From assembly GCF_040054535.1 (NCBI RefSeq), contig NC_090784.1, forward strand, positions 17,019,001 through 17,083,000: 64,000 bases of DNA, in the 5' to 3' direction. The notes under the pieces are model-generated. The model was given only the letters and a program-made list of their open reading frames with translations, ran no database searches and was not told the DNA's origin. The stretch comes from Antennarius striatus (Eukaryota; Chordata; Actinopteri; Lophiiformes; Antennariidae). The position numbers were made by a program, and so were the translations under genes. Each line of letters opens with the position of its first letter. Positions within the stretch are counted from its first letter, which is position 1. Below are positions 3,801 to 64,000 of the stretch, piece by piece.

Positions 3801-6800
3801 TGAGGCTTCTATATGGAGTAATTTTGAAGCTGGATTATGTTAATGAATAGATCAAATAAGAGGCAACCCTTACAGATTAAAACCAGAATATGTACACATC
3901 ATAAAACCCTGAAAAACTAGAGGACATTAGAACCTGGCACATGAGGGTAGGGACACGCACACTTAATGCATTATGAGATGGGGTAATTAGATGCAGGTGA
4001 AAACGACCAGGGCAGAGAGGTAATTAAAGAGGTGGGGAAACACTGGAAGGAGGGAGTCTGGAACAAGACGAGGGTTAATGAAGGGATCACAGGAAGATAG
4101 GAGGTACAAAAGAAGAGCATGATGCCTCGTTAGAGTAGAATAAGTCACCATAATAATGAAATAAGTGTACAGTACTTTAACTGGAGTTGAATCATTTGCC
4201 CATAACCCTCAACCCTTCGCAAGAGAAGAAAAGAAAATAAACTGATTCAAAGCTGTCCAAGTTTAAATAATTCACACTTTAATTTATGCATCCCCAGGAT
4301 TTACAGACAATCTCTTCTTTTACAAAATCTATTTTACTACATTGTAAAATTTGATAATACTGGATCATTTTCAGCAACAGACAAATCAGCTGGAGAAAAA
4401 TCTCTTTCCATCCTACCACATTCTGTCCCTTTTGATTTGCGTCAGGTGCGGCAGCGATGACGGGAGCTGTGACACACACGGTCTCCACTGCAGTCATCTG
4501 CTTTGAGCTGACCGGCCAAATCTCCCACATCCTGCCCATGATGGTGGCCGTCATACTAGCAAACATGGTGGCCCAAGGTCTGCAGCCTTCGCTCTACGAC
4601 TCCATCATTCAGGTGAAGAAGCTGCCCTACCTGCCTGAGCTGGCCCTCGGGCACATCAGGTAAGGGTTAAACTCTTTTTTGCTTGTGTGTTTATTAACCA
4701 GATACATGACAAGACAAAAAGGTTTTATTTTAAATTCTCGGCATTCACAGCAAGTACAACATATTTGTGGAGGACATCATGGTTCGAAGAGTGAAGTTTC
4801 TGTCATCTCATTCCACCTATCGGGAATTGAATCGCATGTTGGAGACCACATCTTTGAAAACCATACCTCTGGTCGACTCCAAAGGTTGAGTGATTAATTC
4901 ATATCCTATACGTGTTGTGTATTTGTTTGGTAATTGTGAAGCTAGAATCAGAAGGATAGTGTACCTAATTACTGTATAAAGAATTAAAATCTTTATACAG
5001 TACTGGCTATACAAATCTGGCTCTGTTAAACCAGCTTTCCTGATAAACTAAGCTTAAACTGCTACTTGACATAAATTCAATTTTTCCACAGAGGAATAAA
5101 AGTGGTGTCATTCTTCTCATCTGACTGCCTTAAAGACATGAAACATGCATTTCCTCCAAAATCTTACATAAATCTTAAATAATTCCTCTTGCAGAATCTA
5201 TGATTCTTCTGGGCTCCATTGAGAGGACAGAACTTCAGGCTGTCTTTGACTGGTGGCTCTCACCGGAGAGACGGGTCTTCGAAAGAGGTCAGAGCTCCCT
5301 GGGTCCGGCCTCCAAAGTGAGCTGGGAGTCCTTCACCTTCGTTGATGAGGAAGGTGGAGAGCAGGGCGCAGAAAAGGTGGAAACAGTTATACAATTGCAT
5401 TAAAGCTTTTGATTTAACTTGAAAGATGTAGGATTTATGTATCGGTCATGTTGTTCCCACAGACTGAGCCAGCCCATGAAGAATGTAATGGACCCGTGCC
5501 ATCCCCTAAACCTCAAGAGTCCCCCACCGACCATACAGACTCAGGTAACATGATGTTCTACTGCTCATTTACATAGATCCACCCACCACATGTCACTTCT
5601 TCTTCCTCTTCTTCTCTCTTCTTACCTGTGTCGCCATATCACATCCTCAGACAAGCGCAACCTGACATCTGTCAGAAGAACATTTCAGAGACTCTTCTTC
5701 TCCACATCCTCATCAAGCCAAACTGAATCTCAGGTACAATGCCAGCGTCAAAACTCGTATGCTCATCGCTTTGACCCAAAAAGCTCGAGGCGCATCACTG
5801 ATCTGCCGTCGAGTTGGCAGTGACAGCTCGGATGGGGGTTCACTGCAGTCCATCTCTCAGAAGTGATGGGAGGGGCATGACATGATGCATGCATCCGGGT
5901 GGGGGATGCAGTGGGGGATGGCATGAAACCACCAGGGGTCATCCTCTCATCATCTGTATAGCTTTCTAACCGACTGACTGCCCATGCTTTCATCCCTCAC
6001 TTTTTCCATCCGCCTTCTTTCTTCAGGAGACCCCGGCCCCTCCGTTGACAGACACCATGTCCCCAGAGGAGGTATGGCACCTTATTAATTCACCACTCAC
6101 ACTGTCAACAAAGAGACGATCAAACCACCCAGAGGAACAATTAGAAACTCTGAGTTCATGTCTCTGCTTGTGATTGGCTGATGCAGATAAAAGCCTGGGA
6201 AGAGGAAGAACTGGATAAACCAGTCGATATGGAGCAGATACGGATAGACCCCTCTCCGTTCCAGCTGGTGGAAAGAACATCACTGCACAAGGTGACCACA
6301 GCACTAGACTGGGGATTTTACCTCACAGCTCACTGCGGCGTGTTCTCTCTCCATACAAACCATAAATTTTTGAATCCTGAATATTGAATTTCATGCTGTG
6401 GAGCAAAGCCATGCACTCCCTCTTTACTTGCATAGAAATTGTTTATGAGCAACAGTGCAGCCATGCAAGCGGAATACTGTCACACCACAGTACGTTTAAC
6501 ACCGACTGGATCATGTCCTCCTCTTTCATTTCTTAGGCCCACACTCTGTTCTCTCTGCTGGGTCTCAGTCACGCTTATGTCACCAGTATTGGAAAGCTGG
6601 TGGGTGTCGTGGCACTGAAGGAGGTACCGTCACTTTATTCCATTTTGTCCTTGTTAGCATGGTTATATCACGATTCTTTGTTTTATCCAGTCATGCAGCA
6701 TGACAGCGAGATGTGATGAGCTCATGTGGGCTGTTGTTCTGTCACAGGTTGCATCATGTTTTACGCTCTAATTCATGTGTTTATCCCCCTGACTGCTCCC

Positions 6801-13847: not shown

Positions 13848-32610
<18,763 letters not shown>

Positions 32611-35453
32611 GTTGTATTCACAAAGGCCCTGGATACAAGCGTGGAAGTGTTGCCCAGACAGCGTGCATTCTCTCTCTTCCTCCTGCGACTCTCTCTCGGC
32701 TCGGGCTTCTTTTTCTTGCTCTACTGTCCTCTCTCTTTTCCTCTCTCCCTTCTGCACCCACTTGATCACTCACACACACACATGCTCTCTCTCTCTTCCT
32801 ACCTCCCTGCCCTTCTCTTTCTTTCTCTCTCCCTCCCCCCTTTCCTGCTCCCTCTCTCCGGTGCAGTGTCTTAGAAGAGATGTGGTTAGTAAGTCAGTAT
32901 GCCTGAGGAAAATAGATTTAGAACAAATAAAATTGTGAGGTGTTATCATACACACACACACACATGATATTGGAGTACCAATATCACTAACATGTTTCCT
33001 GTAATATCCAATTCAATTTGCAACCATGATCACATATACCTGAGTTACAGGGACTGACACTCATAACATGATTGGGTAATTTGTAGAACAAGCACATGCA
33101 TTCATGCAATGAGTGGTTAAATCAACAATTTGATATAGTGTGTATATATTGGGTTGCCACTACAAGATCAATAGCATAAAGCTGATAATGCCACGCTGCC
33201 ATTGTTGTAGTTATCTCTGCACTGCTGTAATATTGTTGAGCTAAAATGGGGGATTCTCTCTCTCTGTCTCCCTCTCCTGTGTGCACTCAGCCTAACAATG
33301 TACTGCAGCGGTTTGCCTCTCCCATCTCCATCTCAGTCACCCCCCCCCCCACACACACACACACACGCACACACACACACACACACCGATTGCCAAAATG
33401 TACACCCAGACACCAACACCAAACAACCCTGGAAAAATGGAAGAAAAAAAAACAAAAACAGAAGAGGGTTTTCCTTCACACCCAAGCCGGCACTGAGTCT
33501 CCACCTCTTCCTCTGTCGTCTCTCTGTATCGATCCGCCCCTCAGTCATCTCCCTGCTTGTATCTCTCGCTCTGAATCACATCCCCACTCAATCCTTTCTA
33601 TGTTTGTGTTTTGCTCATATATTCACCATCATCATATCTTCCCTGGAGAAAACAAACCCAACAACATGTGTCTCCTAGATTTGATTTGTATGTTCATCTC
33701 CACCACCAAAACTCTCCACCATCAACCATCAGCCTCTGCGTCTCGCATCTGCTCCACACACATTTGTCTGTTGTTCCTGAAAGTGCTTGCCAAGAAAATG
33801 ATGCGGTGAGCAGCTTGGACAGTGAAGAGAGTCTGTGCAGTCGCTGACGCTTTTGTTGACATGTATGGGGTGAAGAAGTAAGAAAGGAAGACAACACAAC
33901 AGATGGGAGGATGAGAACAATGAGAAAATGAGCAGATGGGGGAATGATGGGAAGGACAATCAGAGAACAGTTGAGTCATGTGTAGGAGAGGTGTGGAGAC
34001 GATGCTGTATGAAATTATAATCAGAACTGAGAGAGGAAGCAGATAATCCAAACACTTGGTTTCATGATTAAACAGACACACAAAAAAGAAGACACTGAGA
34101 CTTTGAGGTGATTTAACAAAGTCTATAAAGTGGAGGAGTGACTTGCCAGACATAGCATCTCATGTATAATCCAGCCAATCCCTGCACTGTGAGTTTATAT
34201 ATAGATGTGTGCTCGCGCTCTCAGTTGAGTTCCCTCAGGGGTAGAGGAAATGAGGCTATGGGCTGCTGCAGCGGTCAGCTCCACTCAGGCCTCATACCAT
34301 GAATCTGTTTGGGGATGGAAAGGATGGCTCCCCTCTGATATGTGTAATCGCAGACTAAGTATTTTGTCCTCCACCCCTGCCTCCCCCTTATGGCTCCTAA
34401 CCCCTCCCTCCTCCTGCCCAGCACTATGAAAGTCTAAGGCTTGCATGACCATAAAATTTTAGCTGATGATTAATTGTCATATAAATAACTTTGATTAACG
34501 ATTTAATTTTCTCCTGTTAATTTTATCCCACCATTATACTGTAAGTCTAATCACAATGTAATAATATGAATACACCTTATGAAAAGACTTATTTTAAGCC
34601 TCGGTAATTCGCAAAAGCCTCGATTGGACCTGCGGCTGTGGCCGTCTGTCCATATTTGGGGGATCCGGCTGCCAAATCACCTCCTCCTGCTCACCTCCAG
34701 ACAGTAGATGCACATTGAAACAAGAGGTTAACATTGAAACAAAAGATTAAACAGTAAAGGTTAAATTAACTCTCCATTCATGGTGAAAAGCTCCTCAGAT
34801 GACATCCTTAAAGAGCACCAGCAAAACATCATGCAGACAATAATAACATGTTTACAGTCATAGAAATGTGACATTCCCATGATTATGCAAAATACCTACA
34901 GTCAGGTCAGATAATTGCTGTCAGGCAGTAATGGAATCATTGTGGCAGGCCTTTGTACGTCTGGAAGTCCCCGTAGTGCTTTTCTTAGTCTGTCTGTTCT
35001 CGTGGTGTCATTACTGAAATTATTGATTGGTGTAGGTGTATCCATCCTCTGCTACCTGTAGTCCCTTGTCAGTATGACTCATATTTGATTCTCATTCACT
35101 CTGCACATTCTTCAGTATCAAAAGATGGATGTATAAAATAAGCTAAAACATAAATTGCAGATATGAACGCAGAGAAATAAGTACATACACTAGACCTGCA
35201 AAGTTTTGATGGTGAGAAAATAAATCTGTAAGTACAGTGATTTGATGATCAAATCACTCTCTGTGCTGCTTTTACTTCTCATACAAAACAGTAAACTGAA
35301 AATGTTACTGGATTTAGACTGTTGATCAAACAACACAAGGCCGTTTAGGCATTTCCTCAATCTCTGGAAAATGTGATTTTTATATATCCTTCTCTGAATT
35401 CTGAGATGAACTGAGAACATACACAATAAAGAAAGTAATGATTGGTTACAACA

Positions 35454-35649
<196 letters not shown>

Positions 35650-38600
35650 CACACATATGCTTTATGTATATACAGCGCACTTCTGACAACATTGTGATCC
35701 ATGATGGACCGTCAATGTGAAACAAGGTCAACCACAGAGGGAAGATATTCATGACACTAATCTCATTCGTGATGTTAGGGCCATTCACAAAGACAACTGC
35801 CTCCACCCACCCGTTAACACACATGTCTACCAACAAAGCATCTTCAGCAGCATGACACTGCTTTGCAACACATGACACAAACATCTTTGTTCATGTTCCT
35901 GTCAGCACGATTCATGTTTTCCTATGTTGGGTGACAAGGCTGTACTGGATATAAATTATGCAGCCCCTGTTTAGTATTATCGCCATGATCCACACAAACC
36001 TCATCAGTTTCTGGCTGTAAGGAAAGATTTTCACCTCAAGGATAATGAATAACAGCTTTTATGCTGTCTTTTCCTGGAAAGCTTAAGATGTTCAGAGCTG
36101 ATGAATGGAAATTCCCGTTTATAAAGTCATTCTAAAGGTTGGAAAACAAGTCCAGACAGCTCAAGTTGGGTTTTTTTTGAAATTCCTAAATATTTTTACC
36201 TCATTGCTTCCCAATGCTATATACTGACTTTGTCCTCTGCTGAGCTGCTTGTGTGTGTTATGTCATGTGTTAATTGCAACCATATGTTAACATCTGCAAC
36301 CATGGGACATGATATTTATTATCAGACAGCCAGAGTGCAATGGGTTTCACATATGAAGAAGGAGAGGAAAACATGTAAGTAGAGAAAGAGAGGTGACGGG
36401 GGTTGGACTGAGGAAATAGAAAAGTTGAGAAATAGAAAGGGGGACACAAAAATGGTGGATTGCTGCTTCTGAGGAGGAGAGAGGCCAAGGAGCCTCTCAT
36501 AAGATTCTCTCTAATGGCGTGATAAGCTTTTCTTTAGCCAGTGGCAGACAAGTTATATGAGCATTATTTAACGCTTTGGGCAGTTCACTGCTTCTAGCTG
36601 GGATTTATTTTTTGGGTTGTTTTTAATGTGTGTGTGGTGGGAGTTAGGATGTCTATGTGTACGTTTTTGTGCACTTACACAAACCCTTGTGTATGAGGAG
36701 TTCCCAAATCTCCTCTATTATTTACAATTCTCTTTTTGTCTCTCCTGCAACTGCCTCACATTCTCTCTTGCTACAGCGCTCCTCGTCTAAAACACTCCAA
36801 CTTGCCCTTGCACGTTTTGTCCCTGGTGAACCACCCATCCATTCTCCTCAACTGTGGTTTAGGTCTCTGTTTATATGATTTTACTCTTTCCATACCCTCC
36901 TATTTTAAATACTGGGAGAATCTTCTTCATTTTCGGTGGTGACCCATGGCCCCAGTAGTGTGTATCACTCTGACACCCGCTGGGGGAAGTAGGGACTGCA
37001 ATCTTACACTGGTTTTCAACAGAGGCCGGATTGGCAGCGCAGTGATTTTTCCCCCAGTTGCAGATTGAAGAGACCATGTTCTAACTCAAGTATGCAGGTA
37101 TGAGTAGAATAAAATCAGTTTTACTTTGTGTGCACTACTGCTACCTTAATTACAGGCTAGTCGCCATGTCTCTACTAACTGGGGGATTTGTTCATTAGGT
37201 ATTATAACTTGTCTTACCAACTTGGAATATTGGAAAAGCTTTGTGAATTTGAGCCCAAATGGTCAAAATATGTTTTAATACAGTGGAAAAATCTTGATAC
37301 TGAATTTGATATTTTTGTTACAAATATGGATTCTATCTAAAAGAATTAAATTTTTCAAAAAAGGGTTCTGTGTTGAAAGAAAGTGTTTAGTAATGACATG
37401 GAGGATGAGTGTGCTTTTTTTTGTTGTCTTTTCTTACATTTTAAAATCTTGAAAACCCATTTACAAGAGATCCTATTATGTCAACAGATGGGTTATGACC
37501 CCTCCTCCAGCCATCCATGCACAAGGTGGGGTTCACGGTGCACAGCTCATTCAGTCATCAAACCACAAATCTCCACAGTGTGAGGGAACAGTGCTAACCG
37601 AACCCCTGCACAGACTACAGATACATACAGTCTACACAGTAATGTCTGTATTCTATGTCTTTAAATACATTAACTTATGTGTGAACAAAAAGTAAGTGAA
37701 TGCAGAGAAAGAGGGAGACCATGTCTATGCCTCTATCCAAATTGAAAATGATCCAAGATCAGGATATTGACTCTTGAGTGTTGAAACATTATTAGGGTGG
37801 AGGGGAAAGAAAGATATGAAGGGAAATAAAAGTGCAGTGTGCAGATGGCAGACAGAGAGCAAACTGGTAAAAACATGAAGCATAAAAAAAGAGAAAGGGG
37901 AAAGAGAAGTGCGGGTCTTCAGAGAGGGAGGGGGGCGAGGAACTGTTCATTCCACAGTTTGGCTGCATTCCAAGCTGTCTGGCTCTGATTCTGACAGCCT
38001 CACGTTTTTTTGGGTTTTTTTTGTTATTGTTTTTTTGGCTTTTTTTGTGTGTCTTAACTCCATGCTGGGCCTTGAGCTTCCTTCTCCCTGTCTGTTCCAA
38101 ACTTTTGTACCTTCACTCATTTTAGTGTGATATAATATTTGCAATGTTATTAACCACCCCCCCCCCACCTCCACCCCCACCGGTTGGATGAACTTTAGAA
38201 CTGCCAGGAACTTGGAACGGCATACAAACACTGACCGTTTCCTTCGGATGTCACCTGCCTGAGAGCCGCCAACATGGACAATTTTCAGCACGGCACCGAA
38301 GCTGCTGTGGAAATGTCTGACTGGAAACTGATGATTTGCTGTTCCAGTATTACTGGGGAGAGACTGGAAACATTCCTTGTGGGACAATAGGCTATCAAAG
38401 ACCCTAGTGACCACTCCCTGTTGTTCACAGACATGAATCAGGCAGGTTACACAACATGCTGCAAAAGTTCCATTGTGGGAGAGTGGATTCCAAACCTGAA
38501 TGAAACAGATCTGTGCTGTCACGACTGAAGGATAGATCTGTCAGTCGTTCGTCAAGTTATAGAGGTGTCATGAGTCAGGGTATACTAATGTTAACTGGAA

Positions 38601-39447: not shown

Positions 39448-39763
39448 TTATAAAAACCATCCATGTCTTTTCCTGACTGTAAATAAAGTTAAATAGCAGA
39501 CTTATTCCACCAACCAGTCCTGTTTGAACATACTTTGTTCAGCTGTTATAACTCCTTGTGATGAAAACCCCTACCGTTTTTAGTGTCTGCATCTAATCAG
39601 GCCTCCAGCCCCATTATCTCTCCCTCCCTCTCTCTCCCTCATTCCCTACGTCTGACCTTACAAGGAGAGGCAACAGGGTTGATGTCATCGAGTGAAGAAT
39701 GTTGCAGGAATCCAGAGAGAAAAGAGAGCAGGGGGGAGGAGGGGTCTGACTGGACAGTTTATG

Positions 39764-40028
<265 letters not shown>

Positions 40029-40172
40029 GTTTACATAGTGATACACAACTCCTGAGCCGAAGTGAAACGAGAACGAACTTGTTTGGAAGGATGGTGTCAT
40101 TCCTTTACCAGGCTGAAAAGTACAAGGGGAGGGTCTAATAACTGGAGAGGAGAAGAGAGAAGTTACGATTAC

Positions 40173-40870
40173 AGTCGAATCTCTCTCATCCTGAACCGAT
40201 ACGGAACGGAATAAAAGGAAAAGGGAGAGAAAACGGGATATCCACATTTCAGCTGCATTACAAAGTGAGTAATTCTTGTCAGTCGGGATAATTGGCTTTT
40301 TTTCCCCCCTTTTTCTCTTTCTATGTTGTTCTGTAGTGATTTTTAAAAAATAATTATGTTTAAACAGATTTTTTTTTTATTACTGCTGCCGCTATCACCT
40401 GATGGAATGTCAACTTTGTATGTTCCTCCATCAGAGATACCTTCGGGTGGGTAGTGTCCCTCTGTCGTCCATCTATCCGAGTGTCCCTTAGTGGCCGTGA
40501 ACGCACCATACTGTAGTTCGTCCAGCTGATGAGCGCCGACAAGAGCGGACAATGCGGAAGTTACGACAGGAAGTCGGGCTCAAAAGTTGATCGAGCTAGC
40601 ATAGTGGCGATGCGGCTATAATCGCTCGCGTACGTCAGGGACAAGGGGAATATCTAATTTATGACAGAAAAATTACGACAGGCCATCTTCTTTGTCATAA
40701 GGTAAGATTAAAATAGGGTGGCCTCGGTAGCAAGTTGACCAGAGGTGCTTACGTGTGCGGGTGTAGGTGAATGAAGCTAACCGCTGGAGTGATAAACCGG
40801 GGAGATAACGACTGTCATATCCGCCGGTCAGACGTGCAGGAGCGATGTGGTTCATCCGTCCGTGGATTAA
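40173..40870 (+). promoter_or_regulatory. zyx: Candidate zyx promoter and untranslated first exon
   Basis: This block has clearly more CpG than its surroundings (for example CGCTCGCGTACGTC near 40624). It holds an ETS-like CGGAAGT at about 40554 and a YY1-like GCCATCTT at 40683. A strong donor follows at 40701/40702 (CATAAG then GTAAGA), and a weaker donor GTGAGT lies near 40264. Zyxin genes have a non-coding first exon, so an exon ending at 40701 that splices to 47718 is plausible. The orientation and start site are inference. Confidence 0.4.
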
Positions 40871-50700: not shown

Positions 50701-52966
50701 GACCAAAACCTTCCCCGCCTTCTGCTTCTGTCATCAGCTCTTTTCCTCCTATTCCTCCCACCGTACCCCCCGTACCTGCTACTCCACCAAACAATATGGC
50801 AGCTCCCCAGGCCTCAAACCATGTAAAGCGATCTCCCTTTGCCAGTCAGGATAATGCAAACCAAAACCCCCCTGCTGCTATACCTCCTCAACCCAAGATG
50901 ATGGCACCTCCCAGCTCCTCTTTTAGCCAGCCAATGAAAACTCCTCCTGCATCAGCAGTATGTTCCAGCTTTATGTATTTATTTACTTAGAAACATTTGA
51001 CCTTGTATATACTGTATAAAAACAGGAAGAACAAATAATTTACTATAGTCAACAGATCATAAAATTGAATTTCATGCACTGTTTTCAACTGCTTCATCAT
51101 AAATAATAAAATGCTCTGCAAGACAAGTTGAAAGCAGGTATGTAAATTATCTATTTGTGTGTGTGTGTGTGTGTCTGTCTCTGTGTTTCTGTGTGTAGAA
51201 GCAGCCCTCACCACCTGGCCCAGTACCTATCCCAGGAGGAGGTGTTCCTTTGAATATGAGGGAAGTGGAGGAGTTGGAGAAAATGACCAAGGACTTCATT
51301 AAAGACATGGACACACATGCGCCGGTCATCACCTCCCCTCCTACAGGTACATGCAAACAGTGATGGCTGTAGTATTGGTGCTGGAGCTAACACTGAGATT
51401 CACTATAGCAGTCATTTGTGAATCAAATGGATTGTAATGATAGAATGATTTGAAGGACTTTTAAGCTAGGAATTTTGCTTTCCTCACTAATTAGGAAACT
51501 ATAACAGAAGAATTTAGAAAGATGGATGTATTTGCAAACAATCTTGTTCTCATTCTTCTGCTCTCTCTTACACACGCTCATCTTTTATTGTTTTTTTAGA
51601 CATCTGTGGGAAGTGTGGCGAGGCTCTGTCCCGTACCCAACCAGCAGTGAGGGCCATGGACAAACTCTTCCACTCCAACTGCTTCTGTTGCATGAGCTGC
51701 CATCGCCCCCTACAGGGCATGCAATTCTATGACAGGGATGGTTCGCCCCAGTGCGAGGACTGCTATATGGTGAGGATGCAAACGCACAGTTGACAAAATT
51801 GTTCATTGTGTAAAGTGGATGAAGTGATGGCAAGGAAAGGCAAATACTGACTTATTAAAAATGTGTCCAACGGTTATTTCTATTTTTAATGAAACGCTCC
51901 TTTTGCTCCCCCTCAGAGTTCTTTGGCAGTGTGCTCCAGATGCGGGGAGAAGATCACGGACCGTGTACTCAAGGCGGTGGGCCAGTGTTTCCATGCCCAC
52001 TGTTTCCGCTGCAGCACCTGTTCCTGTGTACTTGAGGGGGCGCCTTTTATCACTGACGACAACAACAACCCCTACTGTGTCCAGGATTATCACAGGTAGC
52101 TTTTGGCTGTTGATACCTTAGCGAGTAACTGCTTCTATTCTTAGGGAATGTATTGATCTAAAACCAGTCCGCTTACTGAGCAGACCAAACAGTAATTTGA
52201 CTAGCATGATTCATCCTTTGGGTGGTATGCTGACGCCGACGGCCCACAGCAAGACAGTTCCAGGTTCGAGTCCTTTTCTGTGCGGAGTTTGTATGTTCTC
52301 CTCTATGTGGGTTCTCTCCGTGTTCTCCGATTTCCTATGACCTCCAAAAACATGGACTTCAGGTGGATTGGTCAGTTCCAAATTGCCCATAGGTGTGAAT
52401 GTGTGTGTTAGTGCTTGTTCATTTTTGTTGTGCTGGCGTTGAGTCCGTAAGGTCTCCCCGCCTACTGCTCATGTCAGCTGGGATAGGCTCCAGCAACCCC
52501 CGTGTAAGTGGAAGAAGTGGTATGGAAAATGAATTTAATAATTCATCCTTCCCAGTCTAGGTTGGCAGGCCTACAAGAACTTGGTGAGAGTGTTTCAGAA
52601 TTTGTCTGGTGGCCATTAACTGACAGCCAGTTTGTCACTTTTATCCTCAGGCGTTTCTCTCCTCTGTGTGTGAGCTGCAATGAACCCATAGTTCCAGCCC
52701 CAGGCAGCGAGGAGACTGTTAGAGTGGTGGCTCTGGACAGAAACTTCCACCTCAAGTGTTACCGTTGTGAGGTGAAGCATTTAAATCTTTTACCAAATAT
52801 GCATCATTCAGTGAATCCAGTCAACTAATAAACATGCTTATTTACTCTCCAGGACTGCACTCGGGCTCTGTCCATAGAAGCGGACGAAAACGGTTGCTAT
52901 CCATTGGATGGTAGGATCCTGTGTATGAAGTGCCACACCCAGCGGGCCAAGCAAGCTGCGCAGTGA
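47734..52966 (+). CDS. zyx: Zyxin, focal adhesion LIM protein (9 coding exons)
   Basis: Zyxin joins alpha-actinin and Ena/VASP at focal adhesions and stress fibres and also shuttles to the nucleus. Coding exons: 47734-47956, 48528-48793, 49592-49687, 50379-50957, 51199-51346, 51600-51769, 51917-52095, 52651-52771, 52853-52966. The phases match and give 631 residues (human 572). The N-terminus has [16 protein letters not shown], the alpha-actinin binding region. An Ena/VASP ligand DFPPPP sits at residues 75-80, its Asp split over the first intron. Long proline runs follow. [20 protein letters not shown] near 405-425 matches the leucine-rich export signal. Three LIM domains start near C440, C500 and C560 with all Cys/His zinc ligands visible. 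The end [13 protein letters not shown]. Its nearest relatives are LPP and TRIP6; the N-terminal block favours zyxin. Confidence 0.95.
51153..51198 (+). repeat. zyx: (TG)n tract serving as the polypyrimidine region of a zyx acceptor
   Basis: TG repeats with TCTGTCTCTGTGTTTC run straight into the acceptor TGTGTAG before exon 51199. Confidence 0.8.
52219..52535 (+). repeat. tRNA-derived SINE-like fish repeat in zyx intron
   Basis: A full-looking copy: a tRNA-like head with a perfect RNA polymerase III B-box GGTTCGAGTCC at 52263-52273. Then come TGTATGTTCTCC, GTGGGTTCTCTCCG, CCAAAAACATG, AAATTGCCCATAGGTGTGAATG, CAGCTGGGATAGGCTCCAGC and TGGAAAATGAATT. This order is that of a very common teleost repeat. 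The family name is not certain. Confidence 0.75.
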
Positions 52967-54926
52967 TTTGCAGAAGCGCACATCAACTACAAATCAAATC
53001 CAAAAGCACAGGATTTATTCAGCTGCCAGTTTTGCCTTTATAACAGGGCCTGATTCAGTAGACGTGTGCGAGTGTGAGTGTGAAAGTGCTGCGTGAAAAG
53101 TTTTGCATGCCAGTGCAACGTAGTATTTCCCTCGTTTCTGTTCACTTCAGTGCAGAAGTAATGTACTGCACTGAAATAAATGGCCCTGATATTTTATTCC
53201 TGATCACATCCTCTACAATCTATTACCTTGTTTGTATAGCAGAGCATACTTTTTGTGCCAATTCTATGTTTACGCTAAAAAAACAAAAAACTAATTCCAG
53301 CATAAGTTGCACAAGAACAGTTTGGTAAAAAAGAGCAGTCTGGTGAATATAATGTTGCCTTTCTTTGTCTTTCTTCAATGTTAATAGCACCATGTAGTAA
53401 GATATGTCCATCTCAAGACTTTCACTGCCTGGTTATTTTCTCCATGAGCACTGTAATTGTATCATTGATACTGAGGCAGACTGCTGTCATTGAGAAGACG
53501 TATCAGTGACCATTGTGAAGATATCGCCACTTGGGTGCTGGTAGAATATATAAGGACTTCTGCAGTTGCTGTGCCAATAAGCGGGGTTAAATGCGCCTTC
53601 CTCCAAGTTTACTCTTATCATTAATGTCATTGGGGGTGAAACATTGACTGCAAAAATGATTAAAACAGTGAATGTTGCTTAACATTATATATGTGAATTT
53701 GATCATTTATACGCATGTGTTGAATTATATTATTTGTTGCTTTTGTATTTGATCATTAATATTGTATGATGGCAAGATAAGAACAAAAATCAGTCACGTT
53801 CCTCTCAAAAATAGTCCACAGCTGACTTAGCATTGTATTTTTAGATGCATGCTCTTAAAATGCACAAAATGAACAAAGAAAAAAGCACAGATTTGCAGAG
53901 CACAGATTCCATTTGAGTGATGTTGACATTTTAAAAAAACATCTTGGATAATGCCAGCGGCATGGTTGGAAAAAAAAGACCTAATATGCGATAGTTGCAC
54001 AATTCCTTTAAGAAAAAAATAACCTTTAACTGTCACTTTGACTCAAAAGTCTTCGCACATTATCAATTTAGTTTGTATTTTAAGTAGATGCCACACAGAA
54101 ACATTACTTTTTGATATCCATTTCAGAATGTCTTGCTTTATATAATAGATTTTTTTAAGGCTGTGTGTAACTATACTAAAATGACCCTTCAAGATAATAG
54201 ATTAGCACAGAAATTAGCTTTTAGGTTTAGCTATTAACTCTTAGTGAACAAATATTTGAAAGCTCCAAAATTAAGGTTAGAACAATTGTATTGGATGGCA
54301 TTTTTTTGTCATGTTCTGTTACAGTAAATACCACTATTATTCATCTTTTGTATTTTGGTCTATTCATGTTATATACTGTTGGATCCTTATCTTACTGTAC
54401 TGTAGTGTATCAGTGGTAAATGCTTAATTATTTGGTTTTATTATTAACCCGGAGATATGCCTTCTCTATCTCGTCTGTGGGTTCCTTCTGAATTGAGCCT
54501 GGTCTGCAGCCACAAAGTCATTCCATAATAAAAATAAAAACCGTTATAATTTGTGCTTGCGTTGAGCCTGGTATAGTATAACACCAGAATGACTAACATT
54601 GCAATAGCTTTTCAGCATTGCATGAGTGCTGTGTTTGTGTTGGTGGCGGCATCTCTTATAGTATTATGTCTTGTTTGCACCAAATATACCACCTTTGTTG
54701 CCCTGCATTTGTCATCAAAATGTGATACGCATATGATGATGCCTTCACAGTTGCATTTATCTGGTGTATTATTGTGTTATGTCCTATTGTATTAAATGTG
54801 GATGCCTTTTCATATACTTTTTTAAATAACTTCCTATTTGACATGTGTGAATGTGTATATGTTTAAAAACATTTAGTCCCACCCCTTCCCCTCTGGCTGT
54901 ATCAGAAGATAAACACAATAAATAAA
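52967..54926 (+). other. zyx: zyx 3' UTR with two groups of poly(A) signals
   Basis: Non-coding after the TGA. AATAAA occurs at 54527-54532 and 54533-54538, then at 54917-54922 and 54921-54926. A short UTR of about 1.6 kb and a long form of about 2 kb are both possible. No other gene is visible. Confidence 0.5.
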
Positions 54927-55915
54927 ATGCTGTATACCAACAAGATCCATGTCTGATTCCTCAACTCCCTTGTGCCACTGTAAAGCTGGAAACACCAATA
55001 AAACATGAAGGATAATGCAATTTACAGATGCATACATGAGTAAAAGTACTTCATTGAAGTACAAAAATAGAAAAGTAATGCTGAAAAATGGAAACTAGTC
55101 ACTACTATTACATATTGTAATGCATATTTGAAATCATTAATTTGCCTTTTGAATATTTTTATAGCATTACAACTGATGGTTTTGTCTTCATCTGTGATCA
55201 GTTTCTCAATTTGTCAAAATGAAAATGGTGAGTTGTCAGTAAAAAGTATAAAAGACATGTTGAAATGTGTTTTGTCCGACAGAACTTTTAAAAATTAACA
55301 TTTGGCAGCAAATCCTCATAATTTTGAGAAGCTGGAACCATGTTTGTACATAGTAGAGAGTCATTTTCATGAAAACAGAAAGTGAGCGCCCTCAACTAGA
55401 AAGCTACTGTGCAGCACTAAGCAGTAAACAAAAAGCTGAAAATGAGAGCTTGTCGTATTTGTTTTTGCACCCACACTCTGTCGCTGGTTGGTTCCCATGT
55501 GACATCCGTGTAACGTGTCCTCGGCTCTCTCATTGATGTGTTGCTTTGCAATAGGAGATGCCAAACTGCTCTATCAGTAGTTAACAGCCATGTGTTGCAC
55601 TGATAGTGACGACAGCGGTCGTCTGTGTGCATACATTTAAGGCTGAAATGCCAGAAGGTGCTGCAGACAAAAAAGGAATCGAAAACAGAAGTCAGAGTTT
55701 TCACTTTGAGTTTCTTCTGCTTTCACAAACCACTAAACGTGAGAATCCCAGAGGAGACCCGCTGACTTTGCTCTCTGATGTGCAGAGAGAGTAAGACATA
55801 GTCAGCGGAGTTGGTTTTATCAGTATCAGAGGAAGAGAGTGAGTGAGTGATGAAGTGAGATAGAGAGCTGACATTCAGCTGTTTGACATAAAGACAACAG
55901 GACGAGGAAGTACAC
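54927..55915 (+). promoter_or_regulatory. zyx-kel spacer; probable kel promoter and 5' UTR
   Basis: Less than 1 kb separates the last zyx poly(A) signal from the kel start codon. Three WGATAR motifs lie close upstream of it: CTATCA at 55571-55576 (reverse), TGATAG at 55601-55606 and AGATAG at 55858-55863. No TATA box is convincing. Function is inferred from position and from the erythroid expression known for KEL. Confidence 0.3.
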
Positions 55916-58900
55916 ATGAAACACCAAATGAAAAAGACAGGACATGCAAGCCACTGGAGGAAAACACAGCAGGAGGACATCCAGTTGCTAAGAATGGGGG
56001 AATCTCCACGAGAACATGAGGTAGGCTTTATCTCCACAATCTGAGTTCACCAGGTTGAAGCTGTGTTTACAATGTTCTCATGGTAATGGTGGGAATATTG
56101 CTGGAAGCAAGCAGTTTGTTCCTGAGGGAGATTATATTATTCAAATTATGTGGTTTGGTGATGTCAGCAGTGAACCAAAATGATAGCCCTGTTGGATGCC
56201 AAAGCACAAAATGGTTTTGACTTAACCAACATTTTCCAGTAACGTTGGAAAATGATCAAGTCAGAAAACATGTGGGCATATAAATTTTATTAAGACGTAG
56301 TATGACAGACTGAAATGTAGAAATAGTAAAATAGAGCAAACTGTAGGGGTTTCTACAGGTTGTATATGTGAAAGTTACCTTAAAGTCACAGCTGCTTCGC
56401 ATAAAACTGCAAATAAATCATAATCTTCAAATAGACTTGGTCATGTTTGATGATAACGTATATGAACAGAATGAGTTCTTGCAAAATTATTTATTGCTCT
56501 GAGAACAGAAATTCCTAAGCGGTTCTTTGTGGTAGTCTTGAGAGACATGGTGGAGTGGTGAGTGGAGCACTGGAAATTATTCAAGATATCATCAGAATTT
56601 GTGTGTTCCTCAAGAGATGTGAACGTATGGGGTACCAGATTTCACCTTTAAGGTGCTGGTTCTGCCCAGTTCTATTGATAATGTGGTGTTGGGGATCCAG
56701 ACAAATAATTAAGAAAGTCAGTTGTCACCGAGAATAATGATTTGTCGAAGTCACATAGAAAAATGAACTTTTACAGTAAAAACATTTGTGTACAGTCATA
56801 GTTATAACCTATTAATTTAACATTTAAGTGATGTGCAATATGTCCGAGTCAGATGATAGTCAGGGGTGTTAAGGTTCAAACTCTGGAAATATTTATTCTT
56901 GTAAAACCTCAGCAGCGTCACCGCTCGTAATAATCTGTGTTGTGTTACTTTCTCCTTTCACTTGTTCTCTATTAGCATGTCACACTGTCCCAGTTAGAAC
57001 CCGAGAGGCGGCTTCAGCCTCCACCACTATATCAGCTGCCACTCCCCACCCAAGACCCCTCCGAGACCCAACAACAGACCCAGCTCCAGTATGTTCTGCA
57101 GCTGTCAGAACACCAGCACCAGACAAAACCAGTGTGGATGAATGGTCGCAGGCTGCTTCTCCTCCTTCTGGCTTTCTCAGTCTGTGTTGCCATTCTAGGA
57201 CTAACTTACTATATTCTGCAAAATTTTCAAAGTAGGAGCAACAACAAAGCCACCACTGGTAGGTCTCCAAATAAAAATCAAAAAAAAGGATATGATGGTG
57301 CAACAACAGGACAATAAATATATATTTTGCCTTTTTTCTGACTGTTCTCTCATCATTTTTCTGTAGAAGGTCCGTGTGTTTCTTTGGCCTGCCAGTGGGC
57401 CTCGGACCGTCTGGCCATGTCAGCTGATCCCTTCACCCAACCGTGTGATTACTTCTTATTCACATGTGGGTCTGACAGATATACATCAAAAAGCAGGGGT
57501 GTACAAAGAGGTAAGACCATCCCTGGACATCCTCAGGACCAAAAGGTAACAGTGGCGAGCCTGCAGGAGAGAGATCAGAGTAAAGAACACGGGCTAAGAG
57601 ATAACGACACGCTGGACAGGAGAACTACGCTGCTGCAGTATCTGACTGAAATGTTAGGTAGGACTGAAATATCATTATGTGTTCTGCATAAGAGTACATC
57701 TGCATAAGAGTACATTATGGTATATGAATGGATTATCTAATTTGTGTATTCCTTAATCACTCTGGCAGAATCAGCAGACAGGCCGGGTAGCACCGCCGTG
57801 CAGAAGGCCAGACAATTCTACCTTTCCTGTTTAGACACCAAATCCATGGAGACTGCTGGAGCAGAGCCCTTCCTGGCACTCATTCAGAAAGTGAGGCCTA
57901 TATACACATTTAAGATATGGGCATTAGTCAGATCTTTGACGACGAGGAAATCTTACTGTTAACATGTCAACATCTTGAGTGATGCTAGTGAGGCTTAACA
58001 TTCAGTTAACATGAAGACTGACCTCCTGTTTTATGTGCATTTTTTGCCAGATTCATACCTTTTCTAAGAAAAAACTGTGACCATGTTATAGAAGGAGGTC
58101 CACCGTTAGATTAAAACTCCAATATGTTGGTTTATTTATTCCAATCAGCCTCAGCTGTACTTTGATTTAGTGATTATTGGCAAACATTTGCTAATAAGAT
58201 GGAGAACACTATGTAAATATTATACCTGTCTCATATGCAGTGAGGTGAAATGTGTCCAGCTGACTTTGAAACATTTACAGTTCATTTTGTTTTTAAGAAA
58301 ACACCGTATAAAAAGCTCCTCACATGTTGATGTTTAGCAGACATAATCAGTGTGTTTGCCTGATGATGTTTGCATCTTGCTAAAACCGTGGCCTCACAGA
58401 GCCAATAGCATAGCTGTAATGTTAGTGTTGTTTAAGTTGGACAGCTTGGGGAAAATCCTGTGGTACAGCTCCATGTATTAACTTGTCACATCAACTGATT
58501 AAGATTTTCCTACTTGACAGAAGTATTTAAAACAGAATCTCATTTACTTGTTGCTGTGTGTGCAGCTGGGAGGCTGGGCAGTGTCAGGCCAATGGAATCA
58601 GACTGATTTCAACTCCACCCTGAGCATGCTAATGAAAGACTATGCCACTTTTCCATTCTTCAGCCTTCGGGTGGGCAGAGACCCAAATGAAATTACCCGT
58701 GAAACAGCAAAAAGATATATACAGGCCAGTACCCATTAAGATCATTCAGTGTGTTAACATGCTGGTGGGAGCGCCGGAATGGGGTAAAAAATGGACATTG
58801 TGTTATTGCTTTTGGGTTTCCTCTTTGTCAACAGATTGATCAGCCGGATTTGCTGATCCCAATTGAATGGAACAACAAGACACAGAAGTCTCAAGCTAAA

Positions 58901-61483
58901 ACTCAGGTTGATAACTTAGCCAGAGCCATATTGATTTAAGAGATTTCTTTGGCAAAATGCAGCAATATCCATCCGTCACACTGTGTCACTCTCTTGTCAC
59001 TTTGCATCCAGACACTGCGTCCCTTCTTGGCATCGTGTCAGAGGTATCTGGCACTCCTGGGATCCCCACCCAGCAGCAGTTTGATCCATGTCGGTGCGTT
59101 CATCTCTCTGTCCTCTGAGCTGGCTGTCGCTGCTGCACCTCTGCACCACCGCTTGTCAAAAGGACAGCTTTACCAACGCATGACCATCAAAGAGCTGCAG
59201 GTATACTGGAGGAGGAACACATGCAGCCATGAACACATGATGGATCTGCTGTAGCCATTGATTTTGTTGTTGTTTGTTGTTGTGTAAATATGTCAACAGA
59301 GCCGGGCCCCTGCTATTGATTGGCTGCGCTGTCTGCAAGCTGCCTTCTATCCACTGCCCCTTATTGATGATGATCTTGTCCTTCTACACAACTTACCCTA
59401 CATCGAGCAAATGTCCCACATAATTGGCAAATGGCTGAACATGCATGAGCTGAGAACCAGGTACTGTGACACTAAACAGCCCATAGTCACATATGCATGG
59501 ACTTTTTATGACCTTGTGTCGCCACATTTGATTCCACTCAGCGGCCCCCTTCATACTTACATGATCTTCCATCTGCTGCACACCCTGATGCCAGCTCTAG
59601 ACTCCAGATTTTCTGAAACGGCAAACAATCTGTCTGTTGCCCTGGGTTACAGTGAGAGAGTGAGTCAACAGAGATGTCGTCTTCTGTATTTCTTCAAAAG
59701 ATGATACCTTAGAGCCGGTATGTTGAGTCATATATTCATTGTGGGGTCTTTTCAATAGGTAGCCCCACGCTGGGAACAGTGTGTGTTGGAGACTGAGAGA
59801 GGGTTTGACTTAGTTCTCAGGGATCTTCTCCGTGAGCGGACAGAAAACAGAAAAGTAAGAAGTCAGATTTGGGATGGATTGCATTAATCAGTCATTACTT
59901 CTTAAGACAAATATTAAATGCATTCAAGATTTTTATCGTTTACTAGGTGGAAGAGGTCGTTCAGAATATCTTCTCCTCCTTCAAGGCTAAGTTACATGAA
60001 TTCAGGTGGAAAGATCAGAATTCCCTCCAGTTTATCATGAAAAAGGTAAACATGTGAAATAGCTTTTTGTATTGTCTTATGGTTTTTTATATTTTTAACA
60101 TAAGATGCTTGTCTCCCTCCAGGTTCAATCTTTAATTCCAAAACTTTGGACTACAAACCACATTTCTAGTGCAGCTGAGCTTGATCCACTGTTTTCCAAG
60201 GTATAAAGGACCACCAGTATCTCTAACAGATACAATGTAAAATGACTTTCAGCATTAAATAACCTGAGAAATGAAAACTTGAATAAACACCCCTGACTTT
60301 TCAATTCCAGGTATCAGTCGGCACAAACAACTTCTTCTCCAGCTACGTCCAGCTACTGTCCTTGTGGCAAAGGAGACGCACTAAACTCTTGACCGAACAA
60401 ACTAATCCTGCTGATATGTGAGTATCTTTATCCTCTTCATGTTTTTTTTTTAAAGAATGTTTTAAATGTGTATTTAATATTCTTTTGTCATTCTTAAGTT
60501 TGTCTGTCACATCACTTCTCCTGGGTAATGAGCTTCTCTTTCCTATGGGAATGTTTGTCCCTCCTTTCTTCCATCCTGCCTATCCTAGGTAAAGTGCACA
60601 CTAATTTTAAAAGGGGTAGTAATGGGTTTCCATTTTTACATTTAATCAGTATAAAACACCATCTTTCTTTTATGTTTTTTACAGAGCGATGAATTATGGT
60701 GTAATAGGGTTCCTAATTGCCAAAGATATCCTCCACTTGCTCCTTCCTGACAGTAAGAGAGTGTAACAACCGCCCTTCCCTCTTGACATTTTTAATTACT
60801 TAGTAAATTGGGTTGATAACATATTGTTTCTCAGACATTTTCTCCACTCAGTATATTTATGATTCACTGGAAGTAAATTACTGCAAAGTCATGTTCTATT
60901 CTCTGTTGTGTAGTTAATTCTCAGAGTGAGACAGTGCGTGCTGTGGGTGAATGCGTTTGGGCTCACTACCTCAGTGTGACACAAAAAGCAGGACAAGCTG
61001 GAGCATTTTCACTGTCAGCAGCACAGCAGCAGGAGGTGTGGGTGCAGTACTCTGCACTGCAGATAGCATTGCAGGTGAGCAGCAACCTTTGCACATTCCG
61101 CTCCAAATATACAAAAAACCTTGAGCTCATTCATCCACCATTTTGCCGGCGTCTTTCTTTAGGCTTACAGTCAAACTCTAAAGGAGCAACCAGGTGACAC
61201 TTCCCTGTCAGGACTTTCACAAACGCGTCTGTTTCTCACATCTTTTACTCAGGTGCTATACCTTTATTATTAACTTTATATGTTTTAATTTCCCTCCATT
61301 TAAACTGCTGACCCTATGCCTTTTAATGTCTTCCAGGTTAACTGTGACTCAGACCCATACCGTCAGTTCATGCCCTTGGAGCCGTCCTTCTTGGTTACAG
61401 TCATCTGTGCCAAATCTGACTTATGTCCCACAAAACTTCAATGCCACAATAGAACTGAACAGTATACACTAAAAACATGTTAA
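55916..61483 (+). CDS. kel: Kell-type M13 peptidase homologue with degenerate active site (18 exons)
   Basis: Exons: 55916-56020, 56976-57258, 57367-57657, 57769-57890, 58566-58724, 58835-58906, 59012-59200, 59300-59460, 59542-59659, 59759-59854, 59947-60045, 60123-60200, 60311-60417, 60499-60588, 60685-60752, 60914-61074, 61163-61252, 61337-61483; 811 residues (human 732). The ATG is the first after an in-frame TAA at 55889. A type II anchor (RRLLLLLLAFSVCVAILG) lies near residues 94-116, then the M13 head CVSLAC and PCDYFLFTCG. Kell-like blocks are LGGWAVSGQW, FPFFSL, YIQIDQP, APAIDWLRCLQAAF, PPFFHPAYPRAMNYG and ALQIALQAYS. The M13 zinc motif HExxH is KDILH (670-674), the NAYY-type block is SVTS (629-632), and E720 is retained but followed by VWVQ. 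So I infer no endopeptidase activity, although the human protein cleaves big endothelin-3. The exon ending at 58724 uses a GC donor. The intron 59461-59541 is in frame and stop-free. Confidence 0.9.
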
Positions 61484-61756
61484 ACACATATTTTTTTAAG
61501 CTCCTAGTTATTAAAATGTATCGTCTGGCAACTGTTGATTTGATGCTGTAGAGATTACATACTGTGCAATGTCTACAGTTGAGCAATGTGCATGGCAAAG
61601 TGCTGTTAGAATAAATATGAAGGTATTAATGGCACAAGTTCTGAAGTTACACTATATAAAAAACAAGAAAACACTTTATATTTTTGTATTGATAGGACTT
61701 ACTAAGATGTTTTCATTTCCATGGTGTGCACAAGATGTTAAGTATGTGAAAATAAA
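61484..61756 (+). other. kel: kel 3' UTR
   Basis: Short UTR after TAA. AATAAA occurs at 61610-61615 and at 61751-61756; the second is followed by a T-rich stretch and looks stronger. Confidence 0.5.
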
Positions 61757-62172
61757 AGAGAAATTTTAAACTCATGTTTGACATTCTAATTTCATACACT
61801 GAAATGATCACTACATTCTTCTCATGAAGCTTCAACTATAAAAGGCCTCAGTGAGGCAGTAGCCAAGAGTTGCGGCTGACTGAAGGTTGCTTTAGCTAGC
61901 ATTACGAGTTTTAACAAAATTTGAACTTGTTCCTGACAACTTTTAAACTTAATTTAGGGTAAATGAAAAGCACTGGTTTTGTGGAGTAACTCCATAAAAT
62001 TATTTTGAAATTAGTCATTACTTGAGATGCAATTGGCCTTTTATTTTCATGACATTAGCAGAAGTGAGTTTCTATAAAAAATATCAAACTAAAAATACTT
62101 ATGATGGGAGAATTGTGTTAACATTTTACATCCTATTTTATTGAAATAAAATACAACTAGAACTAAGGCCGT

Positions 62173-62320
62173 CAGAGACTGCAACATCCTGTGACACCCC
62201 TGAATTCAAAATTCTACGCTGACCTACTTTCAGGGTAGGTCAGGGTGAGTCTCGGGATGTTGCAGTCTCTGAATTCAAAATTTTACACTGACCTACTTTC
62301 ATAGGTCAGGGTATATCAAA
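62173..62320. repeat. Nested direct and inverted repeat cluster
   Basis: CAGAGACTGCAACATCC at 62173-62189 is the exact reverse complement of the 17 bases at 62255-62271. A unit of about 32 bases beginning TGAATTCAAAATT and ending CTGACCTACTTTCA occurs near 62210 and again near 62270 with two changes. Between them TGACCTAC and GTAGGTCA form a hairpin around TTTCAGG. Confidence 0.85.
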
Positions 62321-62604
62321 GCATAGGTAGAGTGGGATGTAACTACACCAAAAACGACTGTCTTTATAGGCTTGATAGAAATAATTGTAAATTATTAGCT
62401 TTACATACTCAATACTGTATTAGGATTTATATTAGATTACACATGTCTATATTTATCCTATCACAACAATTTGGCTTAGGTCTTTGGTTCTGGTGTGTCC
62501 ACAAGATTTCTGTTTTTAGTGAGATGTCTGTGTAGGTTTCTGTTTTTAGAGAGTTCTCCAGGTGTCATGCTCGTCTGTTCAAACGTGAGACTCAACGTTT
62601 TTCA

Positions 62605-62695
62605 CAAACAAGGCCCACTGGATTATAACGCAGTCAGTTTTTGAGAAAATGAAAGGCTTTTATGTGCGCCTTATAGTGCGGAAAACACTGTAAAT
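62605..62695 (-). mobile_element. Terminus-like fragment of a common vertebrate DNA transposon
   Basis: GTGCGCCTTATAGTGCGGAAAACACTGTAA preceded by CTGGATTATAACGCAGTCAG and a GAGAAAATGAAAGGCTTTTA segment resembles the end of a high-copy non-autonomous DNA transposon in fish. I cannot name the family with confidence. No matching second end was found. Confidence 0.4.
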
Positions 62696-62864
62696 TAACC
62701 AAACCCAAAAACATGAAGAAACATCACCGGGAGATATTATATTAAATTTAGGATTAGCATTTAGAATAACTTATTTTGAGCAGTAAGTCAAACTTCTAGG
62801 AACATATTGTGCATTTTCTTTTGACACAAACTGGTTGGAAAAAGCTTTTTCTAATGTCTTATTT

Positions 62865-63265
62865 TTTATTTCAATCTATTTTTTCTCATAATTTTCCGAT
62901 GTGGACTCTATTTAATATAAAACAAAGATACTCATTATCCTATTCTTATATTTTAATGTAACTCTATTGTATGTTATAAAAAACAAACTGTAAATGGTGT
63001 AATTGATCATTTTAGAAGCAGGCTTCTACAGGAAGAAGAGTCACTGAATACAGAAATCCATGTATATTACACATGGGAGTCAAACACCATTATAGGAGTA
63101 TAAACATACAAAATGTTACGGGATGCATGTCTGTAGTCCATGTGGCATCACTCGTGAAAAAACGGATAGGAGGCCCATTGCTTCCTTTATATCAATTTCC
63201 AGTCCATTAAAAATGTCCAAGCACCCTACAGTCTCCTGCAGAAAGCATCAGTAGTCCATTGACTG
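62865..63265 (-). other. emg1: emg1 3' UTR (probable)
   Basis: On the minus strand the first convincing AATAAA after the stop is at 62870-62865. The end is inferred from this signal only. Confidence 0.35.
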
Positions 63266-63948
63266 TCACAGGACACCCCACACTTCCTCAAATGCTGAGC
63301 ATATCTTTGCACAAGTCAGTGCCGCAGAGAGAGGGTAGTTACTGATGGACGCAGTCTTCTCTGTGTAGTCCACATTCACCTAGAAAAAGACACAGGGATC
63401 TATAAGATATTGATTTGACACTTATTTGAACCAGCTACTATCAAGAGTCATATCTCACCGCTCCATGTGCAAAAGCTCCAATCACCACTGCAGCCGGTCC
63501 CTCTGGCACCAAAGTCCGGGGGCAGACAGCCTCTCCAGCAGAGAAGGAGGTGGCTATGCGGGGGCAGCCGGGCGGTAGGTGGTCAGACACTGGATTTTTG
63601 ATCATCCTTAGAAGTTTCTGAGGACCATCAGCAGCTCTGACACTTAGCTTGTGCAGCAGCTGAACTATGATAGAATGGTAGAAGAGGGAATGTTTAGGAG
63701 ATCAGCTCAGGAGAATCCAACTGGAAGCTTTGCATTTCCACAAAAAAAAAAAAAAGTATTCCAAAAGGCAGCGTCAATAGCAAATATACACTCTCTTTTA
63801 GCTTACCCATAAGGCCACAGAAGCGGGTGAAGGTTCTTGGAATGCGGGTTTGTGGGTTGATCTCTATTAAAGCGTTTTTTTCTGTGTGGATGTAAACCTG
63901 CAATAGGCCTGCCCTGTTCAGCGGACTGTCCATCAACATGAGCAGACA
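63266..63948 (-). CDS. emg1: EMG1 rRNA pseudouridine N1-methyltransferase, C-terminal exons (partial)
   Basis: This SPOUT-class enzyme of the nucleolus methylates N1 of a pseudouridine in 18S rRNA and is part of the small-subunit processome. Exons in transcript order: 63948-63807, 63664-63459, 63379-63266, phases 0/1, 1/0 and 0/stop, giving about 153 residues out of some 244 in human. The 5' exons lie to the right of the window. Conserved blocks are [63 protein letters not shown] and [14 protein letters not shown], with the end FEEVWGVL. The SAM-binding knot is the C-terminal part, and GAFAHG and the NYPLSA loop are intact, so a working enzyme is expected. It is convergent with kel. Confidence 0.95.
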
Positions 63949-64000
63949 CTGGTACAAAAGAGCAAAAGATTAAACTATATTTACACTCCATTGACTGAAC

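Follow-up and report, generated by a model that had tools for sequence, protein, structure and literature searches.

Kell of Antennarius striatus is probably an M13 membrane protein without peptidase activity

We report that the kel gene of Antennarius striatus probably encodes a KEL orthologue that forms a type II membrane glycoprotein on the M13 scaffold, has no peptidase activity and works by binding. Judged by the residues at its active site, the predicted protein is very probably catalytically dead. The gene lies in a window of 64,000 nucleotides (NCBI RefSeq assembly GCF_040054535.1, contig NC_090784.1, positions 17,019,001 to 17,083,000), and all coordinates given here are window positions on the forward strand (+) unless marked (-).

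The kel gene occupies 55916-61483 (+). Spliced translation from the DNA gave a CDS of 2436 nt in 18 coding exons, encoding 811 residues with no internal stops, in agreement with the open 18-exon frame claimed in a preliminary description of this DNA. Translation and splice sites place exons 1-6 at 55916-56020, 56976-57258, 57367-57657, 57769-57890, 58566-58724 and 58835-58906; exons 7-12 at 59012-59200, 59300-59460, 59542-59659, 59759-59854, 59947-60045 and 60123-60200; and exons 13-18 at 60311-60417, 60499-60588, 60685-60752, 60914-61074, 61163-61252 and 61337-61483 (all +). The splice-site reading gave 16 of the 17 introns as GT-AG and intron 5 as GC-AG, with the GC donor at 58725-58731 (+; GCCAGTA, preceded by CAG). 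By eye, a GT four bases past this donor would break the frame. An in-frame stop at 55889 lies upstream of the ATG, and AATAAA signals at 61610 and 61751 lie on the 3' side. Hydropathy identified a single strong hydrophobic transmembrane helix at about residues 94-117 (57150-57221, +), with Gly-Arg-Arg directly before it; the Arg-Arg pair fits a type II topology, and the upstream stop, the AATAAA signals and the single helix together make the predicted product fit a complete single-pass membrane protein. Pfam analysis of the product detected Peptidase_M13_N (E 2.4e-50) and Peptidase_M13 (E 4.2e-12), and the well-kept blocks that had been reported to flank the altered motifs were found at residue 648 (PPFFHPAYPRAMNYG) and residue 727 (ALQIALQAYS). 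Four GATA-type sites were counted within 1 kb 5' of the ATG and carry no weight here.

Orthology was assessed by identity, phylogeny and gene neighbourhood, using a human KEL sequence (length 732) that agrees with 93/93 residues printed in PMC11669894 and PMC11371627. In a four-row alignment, A. striatus Kell was 32% identical to KEL (678 aligned sites), 27% to ECE1 (615) and 23% to NEP (620). Its best PDB matches were ECE1 (3dwb, phmmer E 3.7e-51) and neprilysin (4cth, 7.3e-25), and no Kell chain was found among these matches. A nine-protein tree joined A. striatus Kell with KEL in a clade with support of 100/99; the same tree flagged A. striatus Kell as a long branch (2.16 vs 1.08 for KEL) and flagged KEL, NEP, one bacterial row and A. 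striatus Kell for odd composition. Pfam matches in the window located a CLC channel exon (PF00654) at 4436-4660 (strand not given), a FAM131 gene (PF15010) at 17807-18166 (-), zyxin-type LIM domains at 51518-52099 (strand not given) and EMG1 at 63441-63969 (-). In humans, CLCN1, FAM131B and ZYX are found close to KEL on chromosome 7, and the CLC, FAM131 and LIM neighbours agree with that neighbourhood at family level only. Closeness in sequence to KEL, the well-supported KEL clade and these three neighbours identify the predicted gene as KEL by descent. Elsewhere in the window, a glutamine-rich open frame without a Pfam match (15588-16082, -) lies near the FAM131 gene, and the list of open reading frames includes long ones dominated by simple repeats (IYLS, HT, ER, SL) at 18304-18706, 20829-21197, 28016-28394, 35190-35890 and 39565-40376.

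The active site was examined in a nine-row alignment of A. striatus Kell with ECE1, NEP, KEL and five bacterial M13 proteins (two nearly identical, activity unassayed). The zinc ligands, the general base and the substrate Asn of M13 enzymes are named in section 10 of PMC2259306 and in PMC11669894. Eleven active-site positions were identical in 8/8 of the other M13 proteins aligned; in human KEL numbering they are N540, A541, Y543, H581, E582, H585, E634, D638, H694, R700 and W732. At these positions A. striatus Kell carries L, S, T, K, D, H, E, Q, Y, L and no Trp, keeping 2/11 (H674 and E720) or perhaps 3/11 with R772. The substrate-binding NAYY block is replaced by SVTS at residues 629-632 (60503-60514, +), and N540, A541 and Y543 of KEL align in the nine rows to L628, S629 and T631. 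HELLH is replaced by KDILH at residues 670-674 (60722-60736, +) in both the four-row and the nine-row alignment, so that the first zinc His and the general-base Glu are gone and the second zinc His, H674, is retained. These two substitutions had been described before in the same terms, and the rebuilt translation bears them out. ENAAD is replaced by EVWVQ at residues 720-724 (61033-61047, +). Here the earlier reading, with Glu kept and Gln at the Asp position, is reproduced in the four-row and nine-row alignments, which set E720 (61033-61035) at human E634 and Q724 (61045-61047) at D638; a two-row alignment instead sets Q717 at E634, and none of the three alignments retains the Asp. Overall, 57/124 positions that are invariant in NEP, ECE1 and KEL are lost in the four-row alignment. 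The broader statement that all catalytic signatures are lost was slightly too strong: most are, but 2/3 zinc-ligand positions are still present in the four-row and nine-row alignments, and R772 takes the place of the active-site Arg in the two-row and four-row alignments, though the nine-row alignment has L there.

The last kel exon (61337-61483, +) contributes two further changes. Its segment is shortened and lacks the transition-state His in the four-row and nine-row alignments, as had been proposed, and the protein ends in ...LKTC with no CxxW; near the M13 C-terminus, KEL H694 is the transition-state His and R700 the active-site Arg. Because C787, C799 and C811 follow one another at intervals of 12, as the last two cysteines in NEP, ECE1 and KEL do, the C-terminus can be read in two ways: the four-row alignment gives a 12-residue tail beyond C799, and the nine-row alignment stops the protein at the last Cys, with no xxW. 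The terminal Trp is gone under both readings, whereas the short extension said to replace CxxW is found under the first only. Separately, the C-terminus (61337-61483) may contain a repeat of the 12-spaced cysteine unit.

Since the equivalents of H581 and E582 are missing, zinc placement and water activation would be expected to fail. The protein could still be a metal-dependent enzyme with an altered centre formed by K670, D671, H674 and E720, or one that uses a different catalytic chemistry. Such an enzyme would draw on the retained H674 and E720, on the conservative replacement of Glu by Asp and on R772 as the possible active-site Arg of the two-row and four-row alignments. Against it, the enzyme would have to function with one zinc His fewer and with no Asn-Ala block, Asp partner, transition-state His or terminal Trp, and it would have a Lys, a residue not known as a usual zinc ligand; we regard it as very unlikely. 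In the preferred reading of a non-enzymatic Kell, K670 might provide a fixed positive charge facing E720, a charge pair in place of the zinc, and the ectodomain would bind instead of cutting.

To locate the losses, we scored the columns at which NEP and ECE1 agree in an N-terminal part (KEL 77-535) and a catalytic part (KEL 536-732); these parts are sequence stretches and not structural lobes, which are built of non-consecutive regions (PMC11669894). In the N-terminal part, KEL retained 60/134 columns and A. striatus Kell 51/134 (22 columns kept by KEL alone vs 13 by A. striatus Kell alone, paired p 0.18), or 58/130 and 51/130 when columns with gaps in A. striatus Kell were left out (p 0.30). 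In the catalytic part, the corresponding counts were 64/116 and 35/116 (35 by KEL alone vs 6 by A. striatus Kell alone, p 4.9e-6), or 58/103 and 35/103 without those gap columns, where the test is weaker (p 1.2e-4). The contrast between the two parts reached only p 0.034. Because the difference from human Kell is small in the N-terminal part and clear in the catalytic part, the loss, as read from these alignments, is concentrated in the catalytic part of A. striatus Kell. The likeliest working surface is the N-terminal part, whose decay does not clearly exceed that of its human counterpart; at the cell surface it could bind a ligand, act as a decoy or stabilise a partner. The scaffold is also retained in its cysteines: all ten KEL cysteines of the M13 pattern are matched by a cysteine in the four-row alignment, the last two pairing with C787/C799 there or with C799/C811 in the nine-row alignment. 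In the two-row alignment, 11/16 of all KEL cysteines are matched (unmatched: C60, C72, C511, C596 and C599), and the KEL N191 glycan site aligns to N283, which lies in an NST sequon.

We then considered whether the gene is decaying as a whole. In a simulation of neutral decay (kappa 2, 0.1 indels per substitution, 2000 runs per level), a gene counted as intact if it had no stop, kept its splice dinucleotides and had no frameshift. Intact genes fell from 3.1% of runs at 0.01 substitutions per site to 0.25% at 0.02, and from 0.05 up there were 0/2000; stop-free frames alone made up 0.75% at 0.05. Set against this simulation, a frame that is still open is at odds with prolonged neutral decay, and a long-dead pseudogene is unlikely. 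Drift across the whole gene is also hard to believe, because the change from His to Lys needs two base changes and is accompanied by several further active-site changes. Relaxation across the whole kel gene may nevertheless have occurred, since the A. striatus branch is twice that of KEL and is flagged both as long and for odd composition. That long branch, the decayed catalytic part, the single GC-AG intron and the fact that Kell deficiency is without disease in people (PMC2259306) would suit a kel that, after long weak constraint, recently became or is becoming a pseudogene whose frame has not yet broken. An N-terminal part not clearly worse than that of human Kell, matched M13-pattern cysteines and a simulated intact fraction of 0.0025 at 0.02 substitutions per site, though 0.031 at 0.01, make this improbable. 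The preliminary description called the protein a maintained pseudopeptidase. What the sequence bears out is a KEL orthologue very probably devoid of catalysis, its frame unbroken and its cysteine scaffold matched; for "maintained", the concentration of losses in the catalytic part and the open frame give indirect support and not proof.

To place kel among its relatives, we searched the same genome (548,383,777 bases, 42 contigs) with domain models for M13 and scored the best 25 and 33 candidates. At least six other M13 loci were found among the candidates scored. HExxH, NAYY/NAFY/LNAYY, ENIAD and CxxW are kept in all six of those found, and the H-S/A-P block was matched by pattern in five. Among the seven M13 loci found in these best candidates, kel alone has lost the motifs. 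By summed tblastn score, two loci were nearest ECE1 and two nearest NEP, each by a wide margin; one further locus (C20) was nearest NEP, and one, scored in part, was nearest ECE1. Window kel was nearest KEL (191 vs 82 and 35), and no second KEL-like locus occurred among the six others by this measure. Window kel is thus the only KEL-like M13 gene found in the genome among the best candidates scored.

These data also bear on two other readings: that the lost motifs stem from an error of assembly or splicing, and that an active Kell sits elsewhere in the genome. Window kel itself had no match in one domain search and a single exon below the cut-off in the other, and because the domain models barely detect it, a diverged second Kell copy could be missed. 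None of the six other loci found is KEL-like, however, and the losses are spread over four exons (14, 15, 16 and 18). An alternative exon restoring HExxH or NAYY had been named as a check: a six-frame scan of 53000-63400 found no HE..H, NA[YF][YF] or EN[IA]AD on the coding strand, a scan that motifs split by an intron would escape. Given that His to Lys requires at least two base changes and that several exons are affected, a sequence error is an unlikely cause of the losses, and we regard artefact or a second active copy as extremely improbable.

The second function known for human Kell is its link to XK. Human Kell Cys72 is disulfide-bonded to XK Cys347 (PMC11371627). The juxtamembrane stretch of A. 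striatus Kell, NFQSRSNNKATTEGPC, starts at 57222-57258 (+) and continues in exon 3 from 57367. In the translation and in the two-row and nine-row alignments there is no cysteine between the membrane helix and C133, and nothing here corresponds to Cys72. We located an XK orthologue in three exons (L050 829-7161, G000:C12; strand not given) with 65-74% identity to human XK, and it retains the Cys347 equivalent, KTDIYGFICAPLL (L014/L050). Given the predicted protein, a covalent Kell-XK bond cannot form through the usual cysteine in A. striatus, and the partnership with XK-type proteins put forward in the preliminary description is therefore weakened and needs a non-covalent form. A complex without the disulfide, which overlaps with the binding role that we favour, would be in line with an XK orthologue that keeps Cys347 while the three XK-family paralogues aligned, out of more loci found, are without it. 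Several further XK cysteines are kept as well, however, so the retention of Cys347 says little about the bond, and with the Cys72 equivalent absent we rate non-covalent partnership as rather unlikely.

The loss of most catalytic residues and of the XK cysteine suggests that A. striatus Kell is probably a membrane protein with another, non-enzymatic job. Kell may here have given up peptide cleavage and the XK disulfide, the two functions described in mammals, and yet be kept; we tentatively raise the possibility, short of a likelihood, of a third, non-enzymatic role that resides mainly in the N-terminal ectodomain and is maybe older or more general. If true, such a role would go some way to account for the absence of disease in people whose Kell is missing or inactive.

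Kell function is an old open question. Human Kell cleaves big endothelins, and its contribution to endothelin processing is described as unclear (PMC4815360); its deficiency causes no disease in people (PMC2259306). Because the human K1 antigen is inactive, as stated in the title of a work that PMC4815360 cites, and deficiency is without disease, Kell activity seems dispensable even in people. A natural Kell without catalysis and the XK cysteine, with its scaffold kept, separates the candidate functions and shows where to look. Among the papers listed in the literature searches, none was recognisable by title and abstract opening as a description of an inactive fish Kell. kel genes are annotated in fish genomes. 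A 2008 survey of M13 proteins (PMC2259306) did not find Kell in Fugu and proposed that only mammals have it, a suggestion that A. striatus kel speaks against.

Compared with human Kell, the A. striatus protein shares the N-terminal single membrane helix, the M13 cysteine pattern, the aligned N191 glycan site and the blocks PPFFHP.YPRA.N.G and ALQAYS. It differs in that HELLH, VNAYY, LENAAD, CQLW and Cys72 of the human protein are none of them intact, and in a part before the membrane helix that is about 46 residues longer. ECE1 (3dwb) and neprilysin (4cth) belong to the same family by sequence, but they are active enzymes. The 2008 survey listed 30 sequences with altered key positions, all from invertebrates except rat Kell, in which the general-base Glu is reported to be Lys and the zinc Glu to be Ser, in a sequence joined from two partial records (PMC2259306, section 10). 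Other residues are lost there: in A. striatus Kell a zinc His is gone, and the zinc Glu is still present in the four-row and nine-row alignments. The Drosophila proteins Gone early (Goe) and Nepl are, like A. striatus Kell, M13 proteins with catalytic residues replaced, and Goe is a type II membrane protein that has been called an inactive pseudopeptidase (PMC11266112, PMC8223033). They are, however, products of insect genes; most Nepl proteins are predicted to be secreted, and Goe has EAxxD and no Glu ligand, losses unlike those described here. M13 pseudopeptidases are thus known in flies, and a Kell from a vertebrate with neither of its known functions would be a new form of them.
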